From positions 1 through 37,134 of IMG/VR virus record IMGVR_UViG_3300026518_000674: a stretch of 37,134 nucleotides of DNA. The stretch is one strand, 5' to 3'. Below the pieces are notes generated by a model that saw nothing but the letters and a program-made list of their open reading frames with translations, was not told the origin of the DNA and did not search any database. Source of the stretch: a virus. The translations under genes were made by a program, and so were the position numbers. Shown one piece after another: positions 1 through 20,419 of this stretch. Within the stretch, counting starts at the first letter, position 1; every line of letters starts with the position of its first letter.

Positions 1-186
1 GTGGGTCTGGCGGAGGTCAAAGCCGCATTCAGAAATGACCGTGTGCGTCGGTGCTGTCGCCTGACCATCGAGATCGCTGTGCTTATCCTTCTCTATGTCT
101 TTCTCGCATACAAAGTGTACTACGTCGCAAAGCTGTTTGGGTTTTTTTCTGCCTCCTCCTCCCTCGCCGGTGTCCCATGGGGATAG
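1..186 (+). CDS. Small putative membrane protein, GTG start at window edge
   Basis: A 61-codon frame opens with GTG at the first base and stops just inside the integrase gene. The predicted peptide has a basic N-terminus (about residues 1-21) followed by a hydrophobic stretch (about 22-40) that could span a membrane, then a short polar tail. It ends 10 bases after the integrase ATG, so the two would overlap by a few codons. I do not recognise a family. The true start could lie upstream of the window, and the frame could be chance coding in the region between attL and the integrase, so confidence is low. Confidence 0.3.
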   Translation: MGLAEVKAAFRNDRVRRCCRLTIEIAVLILLYVFLAYKVYYVAKLFGFFSASSSLAGVPWG

Positions 187-1499
187 TCCTAAACCGTGGA
201 CGGTATTACTGGGTAAAACGCATCCCAAAGCGCTATCGGGGCCTTGTGGTGGGGGCCACAGGCCAGCCCGTGACCCAGGTGCGGCAAGCCCTCCATACGG
301 ACAGTAAGGTGGAGGCCTTGGCCAAGGCAGCCCAGGTAGAGGCGGCACGTCTTGCCGAGTGGGAAGCCATACGCCTTGGCGATAGTGAAAGCGCCCGCAA
401 GAACTATCTCATCGCTAAGAAACTGGCAGAGGCGAGAGGGCTTTCCTACAAGCCGATAGACGATCTTGCGGCCGGGGACATTGTGGATCTGGTGAACCGG
501 GTTTTGTCCCTGGCGACTGGGCAAAGTCTGAGGGAGCCAGCGCCGGTTACCCAGGCGGTTCTGGGCGTGGCGCCAGAGGCTTTGCCGACCCTCAGCGAGG
601 TCTTGGAAGAGTATTACAGCCTGACCCGAACGCGGCACCTGCAAAAGTCCGAGGCGCAAAAGCACCGCTGGAAGCTGCCCCGTGAACGCGCTGTGAGAAA
701 CTTCCTGGAGGTGACCGGCCGAAAGGACGCCAAGGGGGACCTGATCCCGGTCCCGGTTGACCAAATCACCCGCGCCGATGCGCTCAAGTTTCGCAAATGG
801 TGGTCTGCGCGTGTCGAGGGCGGAATGAAGATCGAAAGCGCCAACAAGGATTTTGGCCACCTTGCAGAGATATTCGGCACCTGGGCCGAACTGACCGAAA
901 CGGAAATCTCCAACCCCTTTGTCAAACTGCGGCTGGAGGGCAGGGACGAACGCGGCGTTCCACCGTTTACCCGCAACTGGATCGCAACCAAGATCCTGGC
1001 CCCGGACGCCTTGTCTGGGCTGAATGAAGAGGCGCGGGATGTGTTTCTGATGATGATCAACACGGGGCTGCGGCCAAGTGAAATCACAGATGCGCCGCTG
1101 GAGGATTTCGAGACGAGTAGCAATATCCCCTTCTTCAGAGTCGCGGCACATGGTCGGGAGTTGAAGGTGGCGCACACCAAGCGGGAAATCCCCCTGCTTG
1201 GTGTCTCGCTCGAGGCCGCGCGCCGGATTGTCAGTCGGGGTGGGATTTCTCGCTATCGGCACAAGGCGGGCGGTTGGTCCGCCTCAGTGAACAAATACCT
1301 GTCCAACAATAACCTGAAGGAGTCCCCGCTGCATGTGGCCTATTCGCTGCGCCACTACGTGGAGAACGCCCTACTGGCGGCTGACGTGGATGACAGGGTG
1401 AGGGCCGACATTCTGGGGCACAAGTACAACCGCCCACGCTATGGGGATGGCGGCGCGCTGGAGGGGCGGCGAATGGCGTTGGAGCGGATAGCTCTTTGA
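177..1499 (+). CDS. int: Phage tyrosine-recombinase integrase (DUF6538-type N-terminus)
   Basis: Site-specific recombinase expected to integrate and, with an excisionase, excise the prophage. The 440-residue protein starts with a compact domain typical of DUF6538 (RGRYYWVKRIPKRYRGLV near residues 7-24). A core-binding region covers about 139-250 and the catalytic domain about 270-440. Visible catalytic residues are Arg299 (TGLRPSEI), a candidate Lys335, Arg392 (YSLRHY), His415 (LGHK) and the nucleophile Tyr422 (RPRYGDG). I chose ATG177 because the frame upstream to base 51 encodes unrelated low-quality sequence and the family usually begins right at this segment. The 3' end overlaps a convergent leftward gene by 61 bases. 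Its position at the far left, reading inward, fits a phage int next to attL, although no att core was found. Confidence 0.93.
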   Translation: MGIVLNRGRYYWVKRIPKRYRGLVVGATGQPVTQVRQALHTDSKVEALAKAAQVEAARLAEWEAIRLGDSESARKNYLIAKKLAEARGLSYKPIDDLAAGDIVDLVNRVLSLATGQSLREPAPVTQAVLGVAPEALPTLSEVLEEYYSLTRTRHLQKSEAQKHRWKLPRERAVRNFLEVTGRKDAKGDLIPVPVDQITRADALKFRKWWSARVEGGMKIESANKDFGHLAEIFGTWAELTETEISNPFVKLRLEGRDERGVPPFTRNWIATKILAPDALSGLNEEARDVFLMMINTGLRPSEITDAPLEDFETSSNIPFFRVAAHGRELKVAHTKREIPLLGVSLEAARRIVSRGGISRYRHKAGGWSASVNKYLSNNNLKESPLHVAYSLRHYVENALLAADVDDRVRADILGHKYNRPRYGDGGALEGRRMALERIAL

Positions 1500-1684
1500 T
1501 CCTCGCCTGCGGTTTCATCGGCAACTAAGGCCAGCGCGCGTTTCAAAGCCGCGTTGCGCTCCTCCTGCAATGCCACCTCCTGTTCCAGCCGCACAAACAC
1601 CGGCAAGAAGGCCTCTCCATCCCGTGCAACGATTTGGGCGGCAATGAGCAGCGCTCTGCGTATGCGTTCGGGGTCATTCTGCAT
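1439..1684 (-). CDS. Small coiled-coil protein of unknown function
   Basis: An 81-residue leftward protein, highly charged and alanine-rich. The stretch QEVALQEERNAALKRALALV around residues 35-54 looks like a short coiled coil. Its ATG lies inside the last codons of the upstream leftward HTH gene (overlap 1674-1684), so the two are probably translated together as a two-gene operon. The 3' end runs 61 bases into the opposite strand of the integrase gene. Location and orientation suggest a regulator or excision accessory factor, but no family is recognised. The overlap and codon pattern support a real gene; the function is open. Confidence 0.55.
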   Translation of the reverse strand: MQNDPERIRRALLIAAQIVARDGEAFLPVFVRLEQEVALQEERNAALKRALALVADETAGEDQRAIRSNAIRRPSSAPPSP

Positions 1685-1880
1685 GGTAGGTCACCCGCAG
1701 GCCCAAGAGGTTCAGCTTTCGTGTGAAGGTTTGGTAGGCCATCCCGGCAATGCGGGCCGCTTCAGCTTTGTTGCCCTCTGCCTTGTTCAGTGCCCAGCAA
1801 AAATATCGGCGCTCGACGTCCAGCAAAACCTGGCTTAGTGGTCTTCCTTCAAAGTCGCCTATGTCGTTCACATCCGTCAT
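1674..1880 (-). CDS. Small Fis-type helix-turn-helix DNA-binding protein
   Basis: A 68-residue protein whose C-terminal half (about residues 33-60) is a Fis-family HTH of the type found at the end of bacterial enhancer-binding proteins: AEGNKAEAARIAGMAYQTFT followed by RKLNLLGL. There is no ATPase or receiver domain, so it is a stand-alone DNA-binding module. On the leftward strand GAGG sits 5 bases before the ATG. It is transcribed divergently from the XRE gene across a control region with tandem repeats, the layout of a phage genetic switch. A role as Cro-like regulator or excisionase is inference. Confidence 0.65.
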   Translation of the reverse strand: MTDVNDIGDFEGRPLSQVLLDVERRYFCWALNKAEGNKAEAARIAGMAYQTFTRKLNLLGLRVTYHAE

Positions 1881-2043: not shown

Positions 2044-2418
2044 GTGGCTTTGACAGATGCGAGCGAAGACACCGAACTTTGGGAGCGCCGCAGGCGAAAC
2101 CTGAATGCTCTGATCCACTACAGGGGAATGAAGCCCTCACCTTTGGCGCGCAAAGCGGGGTTAGGGGTCAATACGGTGAATTCTTTCCTCTCAGGGGCCG
2201 CCAAGCCAAAGTTTGAGACGCTGGAAAAGATCTGCAAGGTTCTTGGACTGAACAATGTGTCCATGCTTGATGCTGAAAACCCAATGTCAGCTATTCGGAA
2301 CGATCTTTATGGGATGGTTCAGCGCATGGGGGAGGAACAGGCGAAAGAGGCTCTTGAGTTTCTTCAAGCGAAGTATCCTGACCTGAACGCCGCGCTGCGA
2401 GAAACTGAAACAGATTGA
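2044..2418 (+). CDS. XRE-family HTH transcriptional regulator, probable lysogeny repressor
   Basis: A 124-residue protein with an N-terminal XRE (Cro/C1-type) HTH at about residues 12-75: LARKAGLGVNTVNSFLSGAA contains helices 2-3 and PKFETLEKICKVLGL closes the domain. The remaining 50 residues are helical and charged. There is no S24/LexA-type peptidase domain, so RecA-stimulated self-cleavage is not expected. GTG2044 is the first start; TTG2050 is better spaced from AGGGGG and is possible. It lies just downstream of the repeat-containing control region and upstream of luxR and luxI, probably in one transcription unit, and could bind the repeats to repress its own and the divergent transcript. 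The repressor role is inferred from position. Confidence 0.8.
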   Translation: MALTDASEDTELWERRRRNLNALIHYRGMKPSPLARKAGLGVNTVNSFLSGAAKPKFETLEKICKVLGLNNVSMLDAENPMSAIRNDLYGMVQRMGEEQAKEALEFLQAKYPDLNAALRETETD

Positions 2419-2545
2419 GCGCTGCTGCGTTCGAAAGTTTCGGCAGAGCCTTCAACAGCGCTTCACGATACATAACCCAACCTCAGCTCAACAGAGTTTC
2501 AAGAGTACACTTTTTGGTTGTTTTGTCACTGTGTTTTGTTAAAAT

Positions 2546-2580: not shown

Positions 2581-3195
2581 ATGGAGCTACTGGCTGCGAG
2601 CGACTTTTGTGATCTGGCAGAGCTATCAAGTCAGTTCTGTTCCATTGGCTTTGGTAATTTTGCCCACGGGCAAATAGGTTACTTCTCCAGCTACCCGGAT
2701 GATTTTCAGAAGATGTATTTTGAAAACAACTGGTTGTCTCTTGACCCGGTGGTCCAGAAGTGCGCGCCGCGCGCAATGACCTTTGAATGGGACGGGCACG
2801 ACCCACGGGCTAATCCGGTCATGTCAACGGCTCGAGATTTTGGGCTGCACAATGGTATCTCGTTCTCAAGCCAGATTGCTGGCAGTGGCTTGATTGTGAG
2901 CTATGCCGGTCCGAGCAAGCTTTCAGAAACGGCAGGGGCTGAAGCGGTCCGTTTGCTGCGCAGATCGCACCTTCATCGCCTGACCCTAAACGCGATGAGG
3001 CTGAGCCAAGAACAGTGCGAACTGGTAGCCCTCTTTGCCAATGGAATGCGCGCTAGCCATGTGGCGCACTATTATGAAGTAAGCGAGGACGCCATAAAGC
3101 TGCGCAAGCGGCGTATTGAAGCCATTCTTGGCGTCAATAATTTCCTGGCAGCGGTGCATGTGTGCGCTGTGGCTGGTGTGACGGTTGATTTCTAG
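2581..3195 (+). CDS. LuxR-family transcriptional regulator with autoinducer-binding domain
   Basis: A 204-residue protein with LuxR-type two-domain layout. Residues 1-125 match an acyl-homoserine-lactone-binding domain: GYFSSYPDDFQKMYFENNWL followed by SLDPVV carries the conserved Tyr46 and the Asp55-Pro56 pair. The usual Trp of the YPxxW motif is Phe42. Residues 141-195 form a LuxR HTH (LSQEQCELVALFANGMRASH..., ending ILGVNNFLAAV), somewhat diverged in the GKT/recognition-helix region. I chose ATG2581 over an upstream start at 2518 because the preceding 21 codons do not resemble the family. It ends 53 bases before the luxI start, so the receptor is paired with its synthase. Base composition is visibly lower in G+C than the structural genes. 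Confidence 0.85.
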   Translation: MELLAASDFCDLAELSSQFCSIGFGNFAHGQIGYFSSYPDDFQKMYFENNWLSLDPVVQKCAPRAMTFEWDGHDPRANPVMSTARDFGLHNGISFSSQIAGSGLIVSYAGPSKLSETAGAEAVRLLRRSHLHRLTLNAMRLSQEQCELVALFANGMRASHVAHYYEVSEDAIKLRKRRIEAILGVNNFLAAVHVCAVAGVTVDF

Positions 3196-3238
3196 TTTGT
3201 TATCCTATCGCCTTCAGGTTGAGCTTTTCGGCCAACTT

Positions 3239-3245
3239 GGAGGGA
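3239..3245 (+). promoter_or_regulatory. Strong ribosome-binding site fixing the LuxI start
   Basis: GGAGGGA lies 3 bases before ATG3249, close but usable spacing. An in-frame TTG at 3219 lacks such a site, and starting at 3249 puts the catalytic residues at the same numbers as in characterised LuxI proteins. Confidence 0.7.
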
Positions 3246-3248
3246 CAA

Positions 3249-3857
3249 ATGGAAACCATCGTTTGCGACTGGAGCAGCATTCATAGGCACGGCTCTCTCT
3301 GGTATGATCACCTAAAGCTGAGGAAGGCCGCCTTTGTTGACAAACAAGGATGGGATGTTCCCCACACTGCTGAGGCTGAATGGGACCAATACGACACCCC
3401 GCTAACTCAGTATGTCATCACTCATGACGCCGGGCGCGTCTTGTCCGCGTCTCGCGTGTTCCCATGCAGCTATTCAGGCCCGAACTTCAGCTACATGATT
3501 CGGGATGCGACTTTGGGACGCCTGCCCAATATCCCCCAACACATAATCCCCGTTGCTTGCACCTCTACCAAGTCTTTTGAGGCAACCCGCTTCACCGTGG
3601 ACCTGACCTTGGCAAGGCGGCTTCGAACCGATGCCCTGAAGGAGAATGCGATCCGCCTTATGGAGCATTGCGCGGGGAAGGGGGCAAATCATGTGTTCGC
3701 CTTGATGCCCCCTGGTTTTGTGGCCTGGCTGCGCAGAGCTGGCCTGGACGCCCGTGCAGCCGGACCAGTCGTAACCAACTCTCAAGGGGAAGCATTCTGT
3801 GTGATCGAATGTAGGCGCCCGTTCTTCAAGGGGGCAGACCTCGCCTTGAGCGCTTAA
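3249..3857 (+). CDS. LuxI-family acyl-homoserine-lactone synthase
   Basis: Predicted cytoplasmic enzyme making an acyl-homoserine lactone from S-adenosylmethionine and an acyl-ACP (or acyl-CoA) donor. The 202-residue length is normal for the family. The invariant N-terminal set is present at canonical numbering: Arg25, Phe29, Trp35, Glu44, Asp46, Asp49 (RKAAFVDKQGW...EWDQYD). Further on are Arg69 (SASRVFP) and the Glu111-Arg114 pair (FEATRFTVD). The C-terminal part is GNAT-like. It is the last gene of the XRE-LuxR-LuxI set and is followed 27 bases later by a strong terminator. It looks intact. Acyl-chain specificity cannot be read from sequence alone. A LuxI gene inside a phage lysogeny module is unusual. 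Confidence 0.93.
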   Translation: METIVCDWSSIHRHGSLWYDHLKLRKAAFVDKQGWDVPHTAEAEWDQYDTPLTQYVITHDAGRVLSASRVFPCSYSGPNFSYMIRDATLGRLPNIPQHIIPVACTSTKSFEATRFTVDLTLARRLRTDALKENAIRLMEHCAGKGANHVFALMPPGFVAWLRRAGLDARAAGPVVTNSQGEAFCVIECRRPFFKGADLALSA

Positions 3858-3884: not shown

Positions 3885-3909
3885 GGGCGGACAGGTGTCC
3901 GCCCTTTTT
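3885..3909 (+). terminator. Rho-independent terminator after the LuxI gene
   Basis: A perfect 9-bp stem GGGCGGACA (3885-3893) / TGTCCGCCC (3896-3904) with a two-base centre (in practice an 8-bp stem with loop AGGT), followed directly by TTTTT. It separates the regulatory transcript from the early operon. Confidence 0.88.
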
Positions 3910-3925
3910 GTATGCGTGAACAGAA

Positions 3926-3961
3926 GTGAGAAAAAATCCCAAATGTGAGAATGAAGCTCAC
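3926..3961. promoter_or_regulatory. Operator-like GTGAGAA repeats before the early operon
   Basis: GTGAGAA occurs at 3926-3932 and 3945-3951, exactly 19 bases apart, the same period as the tandem repeats at 1932-1969. The second copy forms the dyad GTGAG-N7-CTCAC (3945-3961). The shared GTGA/TCAC core suggests one repressor could bind both regions. A weak promoter (CTGACA 3975-3980, 17-base spacer, TAAATG 3998-4003) lies just downstream. Repeats are observed; function is inferred. Confidence 0.4.
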
Positions 3962-4087
3962 CAAGGGCATGATGCTGACAGGATTTCTATCACTTTGTAA
4001 ATGTTGGGAAAAAATATCTCTTTTGACGATCACGCCCAATCGGCAGCCTCCGCATAAAGGTTCCACCCTGAACCTTTGGAGGCATAC

Positions 4088-10123: not shown

Positions 10124-12094
10124 TTATCGCTCGTACTCCGCTTGACGGACAGCCTCTGCATTTGGGTCGTTTAGAAATGAGATTAGATCACGCAGCAAGA
10201 TAACATCCATAACATGGTTGCCATGCTCATCTGAGAGAGTATGGGTAATACCGTGATACTCACGATCTGAACTACCCTCATCGATAAGCAAAGATGTAAG
10301 GCCAAAGAGTTGCATGTAATCCTCTCCTGCCTCCCAAGCAATCACCAAATCGATATCAGAGGCTTGCTTGTCACCAGTTGTTAGGTCGGAAATCAAACCG
10401 TCCAGTGAAAACTTGTACTCCAATACTTTAAGCTTCTTAGATAAAAAACCATCAGGATGGTCCTCCTCAAAATCCGCCGCCAACTCATCGGTCACTCCGA
10501 GGGGGTTAGACGTTTCATCATACACATGGCTTTCGTAGTCAGGACCGACCCTTGCGCGGTAGGCCCCATCATAGGTGCTCATTTCGTTGGTTCCAACGAC
10601 TTTGATGCCACGCACAACGCCGCCTGCAACTAACTGATTAAATAAGGCTATGACATCCTGCTCTCTTGATGGTTCAGAAGAAATCGATATTTCATTTATC
10701 GGCACGAAGAAATTTGGATTCTTCAGAAGTAGTGGGGAATCGGCCTCGTGTTGTTCAAGTTGTTTCTTCCAGCCATCCACTTTGTCGCTCTTAATTAGAC
10801 TTTTGCTCTTGTTATCTTCATTTCGCAGGCAGTCACGAATCCGCGTAAAATTTTTCTCCAAAAGTAGTCGGGAGAGTTGTTTCGCAAAGTCCACGAATGC
10901 TTTGTCAAAACCTTTCCTCCCAAGATCGACCACACAGTCCTTGAAGTGCATCGCGATGTGAACTTGATTTTGCCTGCCGGTATAGCGCACCAGTGGAATT
11001 TGGAGCATATCTCCTTGCGGCATGTTGTCCGCCGCCAATTGTAGGCCCGCCTCGTATATTTTTGCGGTGGATCGATACCCGAATTGTTTTTCCGCAAATC
11101 GTTTCCAAATCTTCGCCCCTGACATAAATGATGCAATAACGTTTACATCATGCGCCTTGCAAAAATCCTGTTCCTCCTTGTTAAGGCCATCGACCCTGTC
11201 AATAATTTCCTCACTGTTCCAGGAAATTGAGACCGCGTCTAGGTTTCTAATTTTACCAGGGAGTTTCGCCGCTGCTCCCTTCTTTTGGACATTTTTTTCG
11301 ATTGCTTCAATCACGTCATCATATGCAGCCACTTTCTTTACGTGAGAGTGAGGCGGCAAGTAACACGTCTTGTTCGCAGAAGCCTGCGTCTTATTCCCAT
11401 TTCGGTCAATGTGTGTAACTTTTACTTCTACGTCGGTACTTTGCGAAACGGCACCCAGTGCGGTTTTCACGGATAATGCCATGTGCCAGATTTCAGCAGA
11501 TTTTAGTCCGGGCCAAGATAGCTTGGATGGTTTAGTGGTTTCATCAAAACGTATTGTTATAGAAACTCCTGAGGAGATCTCATCAAACAAGCTATCAATG
11601 TGCGGCTCATTTGTAGGAAATACCTCTGGGTTTGAGCTTGCATTTTCGTTGTGAAGCCAGTTTCTTGCATCCTCCATTTCGCCGCAAGCTTGAAAATGTT
11701 TGGTCTTTGTGTCAATGCGAATGTAGTTGAAGCCGTATGCAAGAAATGTTGCTCCTACTCCCTTGCTGCCGCGCTCACCTTTTTCCTTAAAAGATTCATG
11801 CGGGGCCAGAAACTTATAGAAGGCACTCTCATCTAGTCCAATGCCGTTGTCGGTGACAGTAACTTGGTTGTCCTTTTCATCTATTATTATGCTGATCTTC
11901 TTGCCGTAGTTTTCTTTTTGAGCGCGTTTTTCAACAGCGTCCATTGCGTTCTGGATAAGTTCAGCAAATGGGTCGTACCAACCAACGTAGGAATGAAGAA
12001 TAGAGTGAATGCTGCGCTTTGTGCGCTTTAGAATAATGCTCTCATCTGGCAACGCCGAATCATTAACGTTCAACGGGTCGAAATTCGTAAACAT
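10124..12094 (-). CDS. GHKL (HSP90-like) ATPase, putative anti-phage cargo
   Basis: A 656-residue leftward protein with an N-terminal GHKL ATP-binding fold. The N-box is Glu45...Asn49...Asp52 (ELIQNAMDAV), the G1 box DNGIGL at 82-87, and the glycine lid GERGSKGVGATF at 106-117. The family includes HSP90, MutL, gyrase B and MORC-like ATPases; stand-alone GHKL proteins with unknown C-terminal domains are known from restriction and defence loci (paraMORC-like). Near the C-terminus LEYK (558-561) and DIDLVIAWE (580-588) resemble a diverged PD-(D/E)xK nuclease core; that is tentative. The gene is visibly A/T-richer than its neighbours, opposite to the phage operons and stands alone, all signs of acquired cargo. 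The ATPase call is firm; the defence role is inferred. Confidence 0.78.
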   Translation of the reverse strand: MFTNFDPLNVNDSALPDESIILKRTKRSIHSILHSYVGWYDPFAELIQNAMDAVEKRAQKENYGKKISIIIDEKDNQVTVTDNGIGLDESAFYKFLAPHESFKEKGERGSKGVGATFLAYGFNYIRIDTKTKHFQACGEMEDARNWLHNENASSNPEVFPTNEPHIDSLFDEISSGVSITIRFDETTKPSKLSWPGLKSAEIWHMALSVKTALGAVSQSTDVEVKVTHIDRNGNKTQASANKTCYLPPHSHVKKVAAYDDVIEAIEKNVQKKGAAAKLPGKIRNLDAVSISWNSEEIIDRVDGLNKEEQDFCKAHDVNVIASFMSGAKIWKRFAEKQFGYRSTAKIYEAGLQLAADNMPQGDMLQIPLVRYTGRQNQVHIAMHFKDCVVDLGRKGFDKAFVDFAKQLSRLLLEKNFTRIRDCLRNEDNKSKSLIKSDKVDGWKKQLEQHEADSPLLLKNPNFFVPINEISISSEPSREQDVIALFNQLVAGGVVRGIKVVGTNEMSTYDGAYRARVGPDYESHVYDETSNPLGVTDELAADFEEDHPDGFLSKKLKVLEYKFSLDGLISDLTTGDKQASDIDLVIAWEAGEDYMQLFGLTSLLIDEGSSDREYHGITHTLSDEHGNHVMDVILLRDLISFLNDPNAEAVRQAEYER

Positions 12095-18847: not shown

Positions 18848-20419
18848 ATGAACCTGGCAAAACCTCTTGAGCTGCGCGGCGGGATGCTTGGCTATGCCCC
18901 AGAGACCAACCCGGCGCAGGTGAAGCCTGCCAGCCAAACCCAGGTCCGCCGCTTCAAGGCGGCGCGCGGTGGGCGCTTGGTTGGGGGCTTTGGCAATATC
19001 CTCGGGGACTCGTCCAGATCGCAGACCCGCATGGATCTGCGCGGCTTGATCAACCACGCCCGCGTGGCGGCGCAGAATGTCGATTACCTCAAGTCCTATG
19101 AAATGATGGTCCGTCGCCATGTGGTGGGTTGGAACGGTATTTCCCTGCAAATGAACGGCAAGAACCGCGACGGCAAGCCGGACAAGGCGGCAAACCAGGC
19201 GATTGAAACCGCCTGGGCCTCCTGGTGCAGGCGGGGCAATTGTACCCCTTGCGGGCGGCTTTCCTGGTGGAAGATCGAAAAGGTGGCGGCCACCATGCTG
19301 GCGCGCGAGGGCAACTTTATCCTGCGCGAATGGCGCGGGTCCCGGTTCGGGAAGTTCGGCTATCAGGTGCAGCCCTTGTCCATTGATTTGCTGGATCTGG
19401 ACCTGGTGCAAACCCTGTCCGGCGGGCGCTACATCGACGGCGGTGTGGAGTTCAACCAGTTTGGCCGCCCGCTTGCCTTTCATATGTTTGACGGCCACCC
19501 GATGGAGGCGCACACCGGGCAAAGCCGCAACCGTATCCGCATCCCCGCCCGCGAGATCATCCACGTCATTCGCGAGACGGAAACCGGACAGGCCCTTGGC
19601 ACGCCGGAATCCCACACCGCTTTGCGCCGCTTCAACATGCTGTCGAAATATGAGGAATCGGCCCTGACCGCTGCCCACTATGGCGCGGCGGCCATGGTGT
19701 TTCTGGAGCAGGTGGACGCGGACGGCGCGCCCACGGCGGCCCGTAGCGATGAGGATGAAATCCCCGAGGAGATTGAAGCGGGGTCCATCGTGGATCTGCC
19801 GCCCGGCTATACCGCCAAGGGCAATCCTTCGAATTACCCGGATGCCAATATGCCGGGCTTCATGAAATCCCTGACACGCGGCGGCGCTGCGGGTCTTGGG
19901 GTCTCCTATGCGGGGCTGTCCTCGGACATGGAGGGCGCCAGTTTCTCCAGCCTCAAGGATGGGCGGGGGGAGGAGCGCGACGAATGGCGCGTGTTCCAGC
20001 GCGATCTGTCCGAGGGGCTGCATGATGAGGTGTTCAAGTCCTTCCTGCCCATGGCCTTCCTGTCAAATCAGGTGAGGCTGGAGTCTGGCGCGGTGCTGCC
20101 AATGTCCAGCGAGGGCAAGTTCCGCGAGGCGGCCACCTGGCGCGGCCGGGGCTGGGCCTCGGTCAATCCCAAGGATGACGCGGTGGCCAATGAAAAGAAC
20201 CTCGCCAATCTTCTGGTGGCGCCGTCCGACATTGTGGCCGAGCGGGGCGAAGACTTTGAGCAGGTGGCACTGCGCTTTGCCCGCGATGTGGAGACGCTGG
20301 ACGCGGCGCGCCCCGGCCTTGGCCAGGCGCTCCTGTCTTCATTGAAATCCTCCACCGCCCTTTCCCCGCCAGACCCAAATCAGGGCGAGGACGCGGCCCC
20401 CGATCCCGGCAACGGATAA
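18848..20419 (+). CDS. Portal protein, lambda family
   Basis: A 523-residue portal that forms the dodecameric DNA channel at the capsid vertex and docks the terminase. It matches lambda gpB-family portals: an N-terminal segment ending in RSQTRMDLRGLINHARVAAQ, then NVDYLKSYEMMVRRHVVGWN followed by GISLQM, a central SIDLLDLDLVQT and RIRIPAREIIHV, and a C-terminal clip/stem region SYAGLSSDMEGASFSSLKDG. The end is a proline/aspartate-rich tail. Many lambda-type portals are followed by a ClpP/S49-type protease; here a capsid protease-capsid fusion follows after 16 bases. Confidence 0.92.
   Translation: MNLAKPLELRGGMLGYAPETNPAQVKPASQTQVRRFKAARGGRLVGGFGNILGDSSRSQTRMDLRGLINHARVAAQNVDYLKSYEMMVRRHVVGWNGISLQMNGKNRDGKPDKAANQAIETAWASWCRRGNCTPCGRLSWWKIEKVAATMLAREGNFILREWRGSRFGKFGYQVQPLSIDLLDLDLVQTLSGGRYIDGGVEFNQFGRPLAFHMFDGHPMEAHTGQSRNRIRIPAREIIHVIRETETGQALGTPESHTALRRFNMLSKYEESALTAAHYGAAAMVFLEQVDADGAPTAARSDEDEIPEEIEAGSIVDLPPGYTAKGNPSNYPDANMPGFMKSLTRGGAAGLGVSYAGLSSDMEGASFSSLKDGRGEERDEWRVFQRDLSEGLHDEVFKSFLPMAFLSNQVRLESGAVLPMSSEGKFREAATWRGRGWASVNPKDDAVANEKNLANLLVAPSDIVAERGEDFEQVALRFARDVETLDAARPGLGQALLSSLKSSTALSPPDPNQGEDAAPDPGNG

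Follow-up and report, generated by a model that had tools for sequence, protein, structure and literature searches.

The stretch of DNA analysed here (the window, 37,134 nucleotides) corresponds to C17:396622-433755 in the 4.3-Mb genome of its host, a marine Roseobacter-group bacterium. Near the left end of the window is a divergent arrangement of genes. A counter-oriented gene, hth, lies 5' of three genes on the plus strand, xre, luxR and luxI; the promoters of both arms are putative. luxR follows xre after a gap of 162 bp and is itself directly upstream of luxI. The features of the region are as follows.

177-1499, plus strand: tyrosine integrase, 440 aa, starting at ATG 177 and adjoining attL (phrog_1, E 2e-17; 63% identical to the integrase of Dinoroseobacter phage R4C)
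1439-1684, minus strand: small phage ORF, 81 aa, downstream of hth and overlapping the 3' end of the integrase gene; R4C has a homologue
1674-1880, minus strand: hth, Fis-family helix-turn-helix protein, 68 aa (PF02954, E 1.5e-6; 67% identical to R4C, 75% to a Ruegeria prophage)
1921-1990, no strand assigned: conserved intergenic block between hth and xre with tandem operator-like sites (58/70 bp identical in the Ruegeria prophage)
2044-2418, plus strand: xre, Cro/CI-type helix-turn-helix regulator, 124 aa, GTG start (PF13443, E 2.5e-10; 61% identical to the Ruegeria prophage)
2291-2473, minus strand: probable gene for a 60-aa protein, converging on xre and in part antisense to it; homologues in the Ruegeria prophage (L121) and in a Phaeobacter prophage (L122)
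2581-3195, plus strand: luxR, acyl-homoserine-lactone (AHL) receptor, 204 aa (PF03472 autoinducer-binding domain, E 9e-14)
3249 (ATG) to 3857 (stop), plus strand: luxI, AHL synthase, 202 aa (PF00765, E 1.5e-12, above the cut-off; phrog_31881, E 1e-35)
3885-3909, plus strand: intrinsic terminator after luxI, a perfect 9-bp stem (GGGCGGACA/TGTCCGCCC) followed by TTTTT
3910-4075, plus strand: putative early (lytic) promoter region before the replication operon, with a block, CTCTTTTGACGATCACG, common to the Ruegeria prophage L121

An earlier note on this DNA had placed the lux pair after an XRE gene and before the early operon. This order holds: xre (2044-2418) precedes the pair, and g4076 and the phosphohydrolase, primase and helicase genes follow the terminator. 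The note was also right about LuxR, LuxI and XRE as components but missed two others, hth (1674-1880) and the probable small gene (2291-2473). In this prophage, in L121 (12340 leftward) and in L122 (12322 leftward), the small gene has its start codon exactly 55 nt past the stop of xre. In the part outside xre, its likeness to the L121 and L122 homologues is beyond that of shuffled sequences (p 0.0005 and 0.002), and the L122 homologue sits in a prophage without luxR-luxI. Because of the 162-bp gap and the probable convergent gene between xre and luxR, a single xre-luxR-luxI transcript is not certain. The 81-aa ORF has no match in Pfam or PHROG; its R4C homologue is at the same place (59% identity over 37 aa), and related prophages have homologues too.

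The prophage and its backbone

From its sequence the element is an apparently intact, complete-looking prophage integrated in a tRNA-Gln gene. It is flanked by an 18-bp direct repeat; attL ends the tRNA-Gln gene (window coordinate -210) and the second copy, attR, is at 38463, giving a span of about 38.67 kb, nearly all of it inside the window. The prophage location of the module is backed by the att repeats, the tRNA, the integrase and the structural genes. No inactivated gene was noticed among the part of the ORFs that was examined.

The packaging, head, tail and replication genes are collinear with those of Cronusvirus (RcRhea, RcCronus, RcSaxon) and of R4C. The terminase is 72% and the primase-helicase 69% identical to those of Rhodobacter phage RcRhea, with collinear structural genes, and most structural and replication proteins are roughly 50-75% identical to those of RcRhea and RcCronus in the same order. 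On protein identity and collinearity the phage is classed as a Cronusvirus-like temperate siphovirus, and as "-like" only. RcRhea has a RepA/partition cassette in the switch slot and no integrase, whereas this prophage has an integrase. R4C is an isolated phage that does carry one, in contrast to the Rhodobacter members (PMC6836515, PMC8601537). R4C, RcRhea, RcCronus and RcSaxon all differ from this prophage in having no luxR-luxI.

Elsewhere in the window, at 10124-12094 on the minus strand and opposed to the early operon, is a gene for a 656-aa protein with a GHKL-type ATPase domain, possibly cargo. Its only defence match is a weak one, to the protein TmtA (PADLOC, E 5e-5).

The synthase and the receptor

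The note had described a LuxR-type receptor and an apparently intact LuxI with nine named residues, and the domain matches, the alignment and the models bear this out. All nine catalytic residues of LuxI (R25, F29, W35, E44, D46, D49, R69, E111 and R114) are present, and they are invariant in an alignment of five synthases comprising this LuxI, three family members and the host LuxI. The AlphaFold2 model of LuxI has a pLDDT of 84; its best PDB matches are the AHL synthases TofI, BjaI, MesI, RpaI and LasI, with E values down to 1.6e-11. The model of LuxR matches the AHL receptors SdiA, QscR and RhlR. Sequence and model alike mark LuxI and LuxR as genuine.

In TraR residue numbering, the receptor keeps equivalents of Y61, D70, P71, W85 and G113, and W57 is replaced by F42; most ligand-contact residues are intact. 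The C-terminal LuxR-type helix-turn-helix (PF00196) is recognisable but weak, scoring under the Pfam cut-off (17.1 vs 23.5 bits). A related phage contig from IMG/VR (L047, 2125-2583) encodes a LuxR-like receptor without any DNA-binding domain, though luxI and xre are present; that receptor perhaps acts only through XRE. Given the weak helix-turn-helix, the change of W57 to F42 and the L047 receptor, LuxR here may also act mainly through XRE.

The phage pair comes on top of one in the host genome, whose own luxR-luxI adjoins a crotonyl-CoA reductase-like gene. A weak third LuxI match in the host (C12), read by eye, looks like an OlsB-type acyltransferase beside an OlsA-like gene and is not a LuxI. 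In the LuxI tree, this LuxI, the Ruegeria prophage LuxI and one chromosomal orphan form a single supported group. The other three phage LuxIs form a separate group; the deeper order is unsure and several branches are long. The nearest LuxI from the first family search (54% identical; L040 in genome G073, 19153-19770) might have been a second prophage copy, but this was rejected, as it sits among ordinary chromosomal genes, with no luxR or xre match in its neighbourhood. This chromosomal luxI is maybe a leftover of a phage module.

Regulatory DNA

The block between hth and xre, with 58 of its 70 bp shared with the Ruegeria prophage, exceeds the best of 60 shuffles (35). It contains two operator-like sites resembling TCAC-N8-GTGA, TCACAAAATAACGTGA (1932-1947) and TCACAAAATACAATGA (1951-1966), 19 bp apart. 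These tandem sites resemble XRE/CI-type operators and may bind a protein of that type.

The lux pair was said to be closed by its own terminator. The structure at 3885-3909 is real in form, with a 9-bp stem and five Ts, although terminator-like matches are no commoner in this region than in shuffles. In the corresponding position after luxI, the Ruegeria prophage carries a terminator-like sequence that differs from this one. A shorter stretch of the CTCTTTTGACGATCACG block also precedes the early operon in L122. Upstream of xre and of hth, a scan for consensus promoters gave nothing useful. No sequence could be identified as a classical lux box; the palindromes ACCACTTATGGT/CCACTCGTGG, candidates that lie close to the starts of both genes, are not conserved in the Ruegeria orthologue.

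The same slot in related prophages

LuxI relatives were reached via the phage backbone, and the named bacterial genomes were chosen by related integrases. A prophage of Ruegeria atlantica HKCCD6212 (L121) has the same backbone, with a 74% identical primase-helicase, and carries an orthologous module in the matching position, made up of hth (75%), xre (61%), luxR (59%), luxI (70.6%) and the operator block. At 70.6% identity of the synthases, the two prophages may use the same signal or different ones. Identities at first, second and third codon positions are 0.72/0.81/0.42 for luxI, 0.67/0.79/0.39 for luxR and 0.74/0.82/0.41 for xre. The third positions have strongly diverged and the first and second are conserved, which indicates selection for protein function. 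The check proposed earlier, whether the pair is kept beside phage repressors in relatives, is thus answered by an orthologous xre-luxR-luxI at the same place, and homologues are not confined to non-phage loci as they would be if this copy were a random insertion.

More divergent modules, with xre, a luxR gene and a luxI that shares only 25-28% identity with the present one, are found in Phaeobacter sp. 11ANDIMAR09, Pseudophaeobacter EL27, Tritonibacter litoralis and one IMG/VR contig. In the first two the integrase is 88% identical by scan (83% over a longer alignment) and LuxI only 27%. A second 11ANDIMAR09 prophage (L122, 11500-12662) keeps hth (60%) and xre (56%); luxR-luxI is missing, and the early operon is directly next. 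In R4C the slot holds a cI-like helix-turn-helix gene on the minus strand after hth, and no lux genes. Other prophages with related integrases have hth, and lux genes were not found in them. Since the same slot is filled by lux pairs, by a cI-like repressor or by xre alone, luxR-luxI is an exchangeable cassette in the repressor position, as has likewise been reported for other Roseobacter phages (PMC13345283).

The note's statement that a receptor together with a synthase is rare in phage switches stands for isolated phages but not for Roseobacter prophages, where luxI is common (53 of 93; PMC13345283). In a search, neither this LuxI nor this LuxR matched anything among the INPHARED phages. 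IMG/VR likewise gave nothing when scanned with this LuxI alone, and a scan of it with three phage LuxIs found only two loci, both already known. The isolated 79.5-kb Dinoroseobacter phage vB_DshS_R26L (PP882867, 312-830) encodes a LuxI-like protein, annotated as hypothetical, that is 32.5% identical to the host LuxI. In the host's genus, a luxI follows a short luxR-like ORF beside an RTX-repeat protein near a contig end (L006, 980-2085) and may belong to another mobile module.

A proposed lysis-lysogeny switch

In a July 2026 preprint, Bunsick et al. showed that hth / xre-luxR-luxI is a working lysis-lysogeny switch in two unrelated prophages of Phaeobacter inhibens (PMC13345283). There LuxI makes AHLs, and the promoter of xre-luxR-luxI is driven by LuxR together with the signal. 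Lysogens keep the hth promoter off, and lysis is induced when the quorum system is blocked. XRE is an activator in one of the two prophages and a repressor in the second (PMC13345283).

We regard it as likely that the present locus is a lysis-lysogeny switch of this quorum-sensing type, with a signal that counts lysogens. The gene content and order, the catalytic and most ligand-contact residues, the conservation in Ruegeria, the operator block and the exchange with other repressor modules were computed here; the direction of the signal effect, the action of LuxR on the lysogeny promoter and the lytic role of hth are inferred from what was shown in Phaeobacter. The rightward promoter, between hth and xre, would be on in a lysogen. 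XRE and AHL-bound LuxR would keep the lysogeny genes on, and hth, the presumed lytic-side gene by analogy, and the early operon off. LuxI would produce a diffusible acyl-homoserine lactone whose level reports nearby cells already carrying the prophage. A high signal would hold lysogeny, and a low signal or a blocked LuxR would release hth and the early operon. By this analogy the prophage can probably sense how many neighbouring cells it already occupies. The idea that it makes and senses its own signal within the switch, raised in the earlier note, gains support from the position of the pair, the Ruegeria module, the exchange in the repressor slot and the Phaeobacter experiments (PMC13345283).

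luxR-luxI might instead be lysogenic-conversion cargo that alters AHL signalling of the host by an early or extra signal, leaving xre and hth alone to run the switch. An xre-only switch does appear to exist in L122 of 11ANDIMAR09; the 162-bp gap before luxR and the terminator after luxI are as expected for a cassette, and in P. inhibens one prophage signal activates host quorum sensing (PMC13345283). However, in several prophages of this backbone luxR-luxI, of differing LuxI lineages, occupies exactly the slot of the repressor, as would not be needed for cargo, and both P. inhibens phage pairs control the lysogeny promoter (PMC13345283). We consider the cargo role without a switch role rather unlikely; the two roles are not mutually exclusive. 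An addition to the scheme, unlikely though slightly less so, is that the small protein (2291-2473, about 50-60 aa in this branch) is an additional part of the switch, not described before, and that an older switch of xre and small protein later received the luxR-luxI cassette. If so, the small protein could provide an antirepressor or antisense control of xre, a second route of induction beside the quorum signal.

That the module is a decaying or silent remnant, with a dead synthase or receptor or a prophage that is not inducible, is very improbable. The weak helix-turn-helix score of LuxR would fit such decay, but the catalytic residues are all kept, the ORFs are intact and the pattern against the Ruegeria orthologue is purifying; the structural and replication genes look complete and att repeats flank the element. 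Least probable of all is that the receptor hears host or competitor signals, with lysis at high host density as in VP882 and LuxI serving mainly to jam others. The host does carry its own LuxI, and host and phage signals cross-talk in P. inhibens (PMC13345283). Against this, a cognate luxI lies beside luxR in the same orientation, both are kept in the Ruegeria orthologue, and the published relatives react most strongly to the signal that they make themselves, employing it for lysogeny (PMC13345283).

A lysogen-counting switch of the Phaeobacter type would place quorum sensing on the backbone of a Cronusvirus-like phage. Since its isolated relative R4C has a cI-like repressor in place of the lux pair, presence and absence of the cassette can be compared directly among close relatives, and one can ask whether exchanging a cI-like repressor for luxR-luxI converts a phage from repressor control to lysogen counting. 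The xre-only 11ANDIMAR09 prophage, which lacks the cassette, serves as a natural control, and comparison with the Ruegeria orthologue provides an operator footprint.

Comparison with known quorum-sensing phages

The Arbitrium system (AimR-AimP) of SPbeta-type Bacillus phages is alike in principle, in that a signal made by lysogens favours lysogeny, but its signal is a peptide and its receptor is unrelated, so it is not a member of this type. Aeromonas phage ARM81ld reportedly has a LuxR with an XRE partner in its switch; it is said to carry the receptor only, with no synthase, and to listen to a host-made signal. Vibriophage VP882 has the VqmA receptor in its switch, also without a synthase, and listens to a host-made signal (as cited in PMC13345283). 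A coral virome study had earlier reported an AHL synthase together with a LuxR-type gene in one phage genome (PMC11309003), and the published phage LuxIs have been sorted into types A-J, which are clusters at 80% identity (PMC13345283).

The closest counterparts are Phage A and Phage B of P. inhibens T5. They have the same order of counter-oriented hth, xre, luxR and luxI, in Roseobacter-group hosts with a separate LuxI/LuxR, the likeness being one of layout. In the present module, unlike the published ones, 162 bp separate xre from luxR, and a probable small gene that converges on xre lies between the two. The T5 phages are Mu-like and ep3-like and myovirus-like, whereas the present prophage is a Cronusvirus-like siphovirus. 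The type of switch is already known, and this prophage is a further case of it on a different phage backbone.
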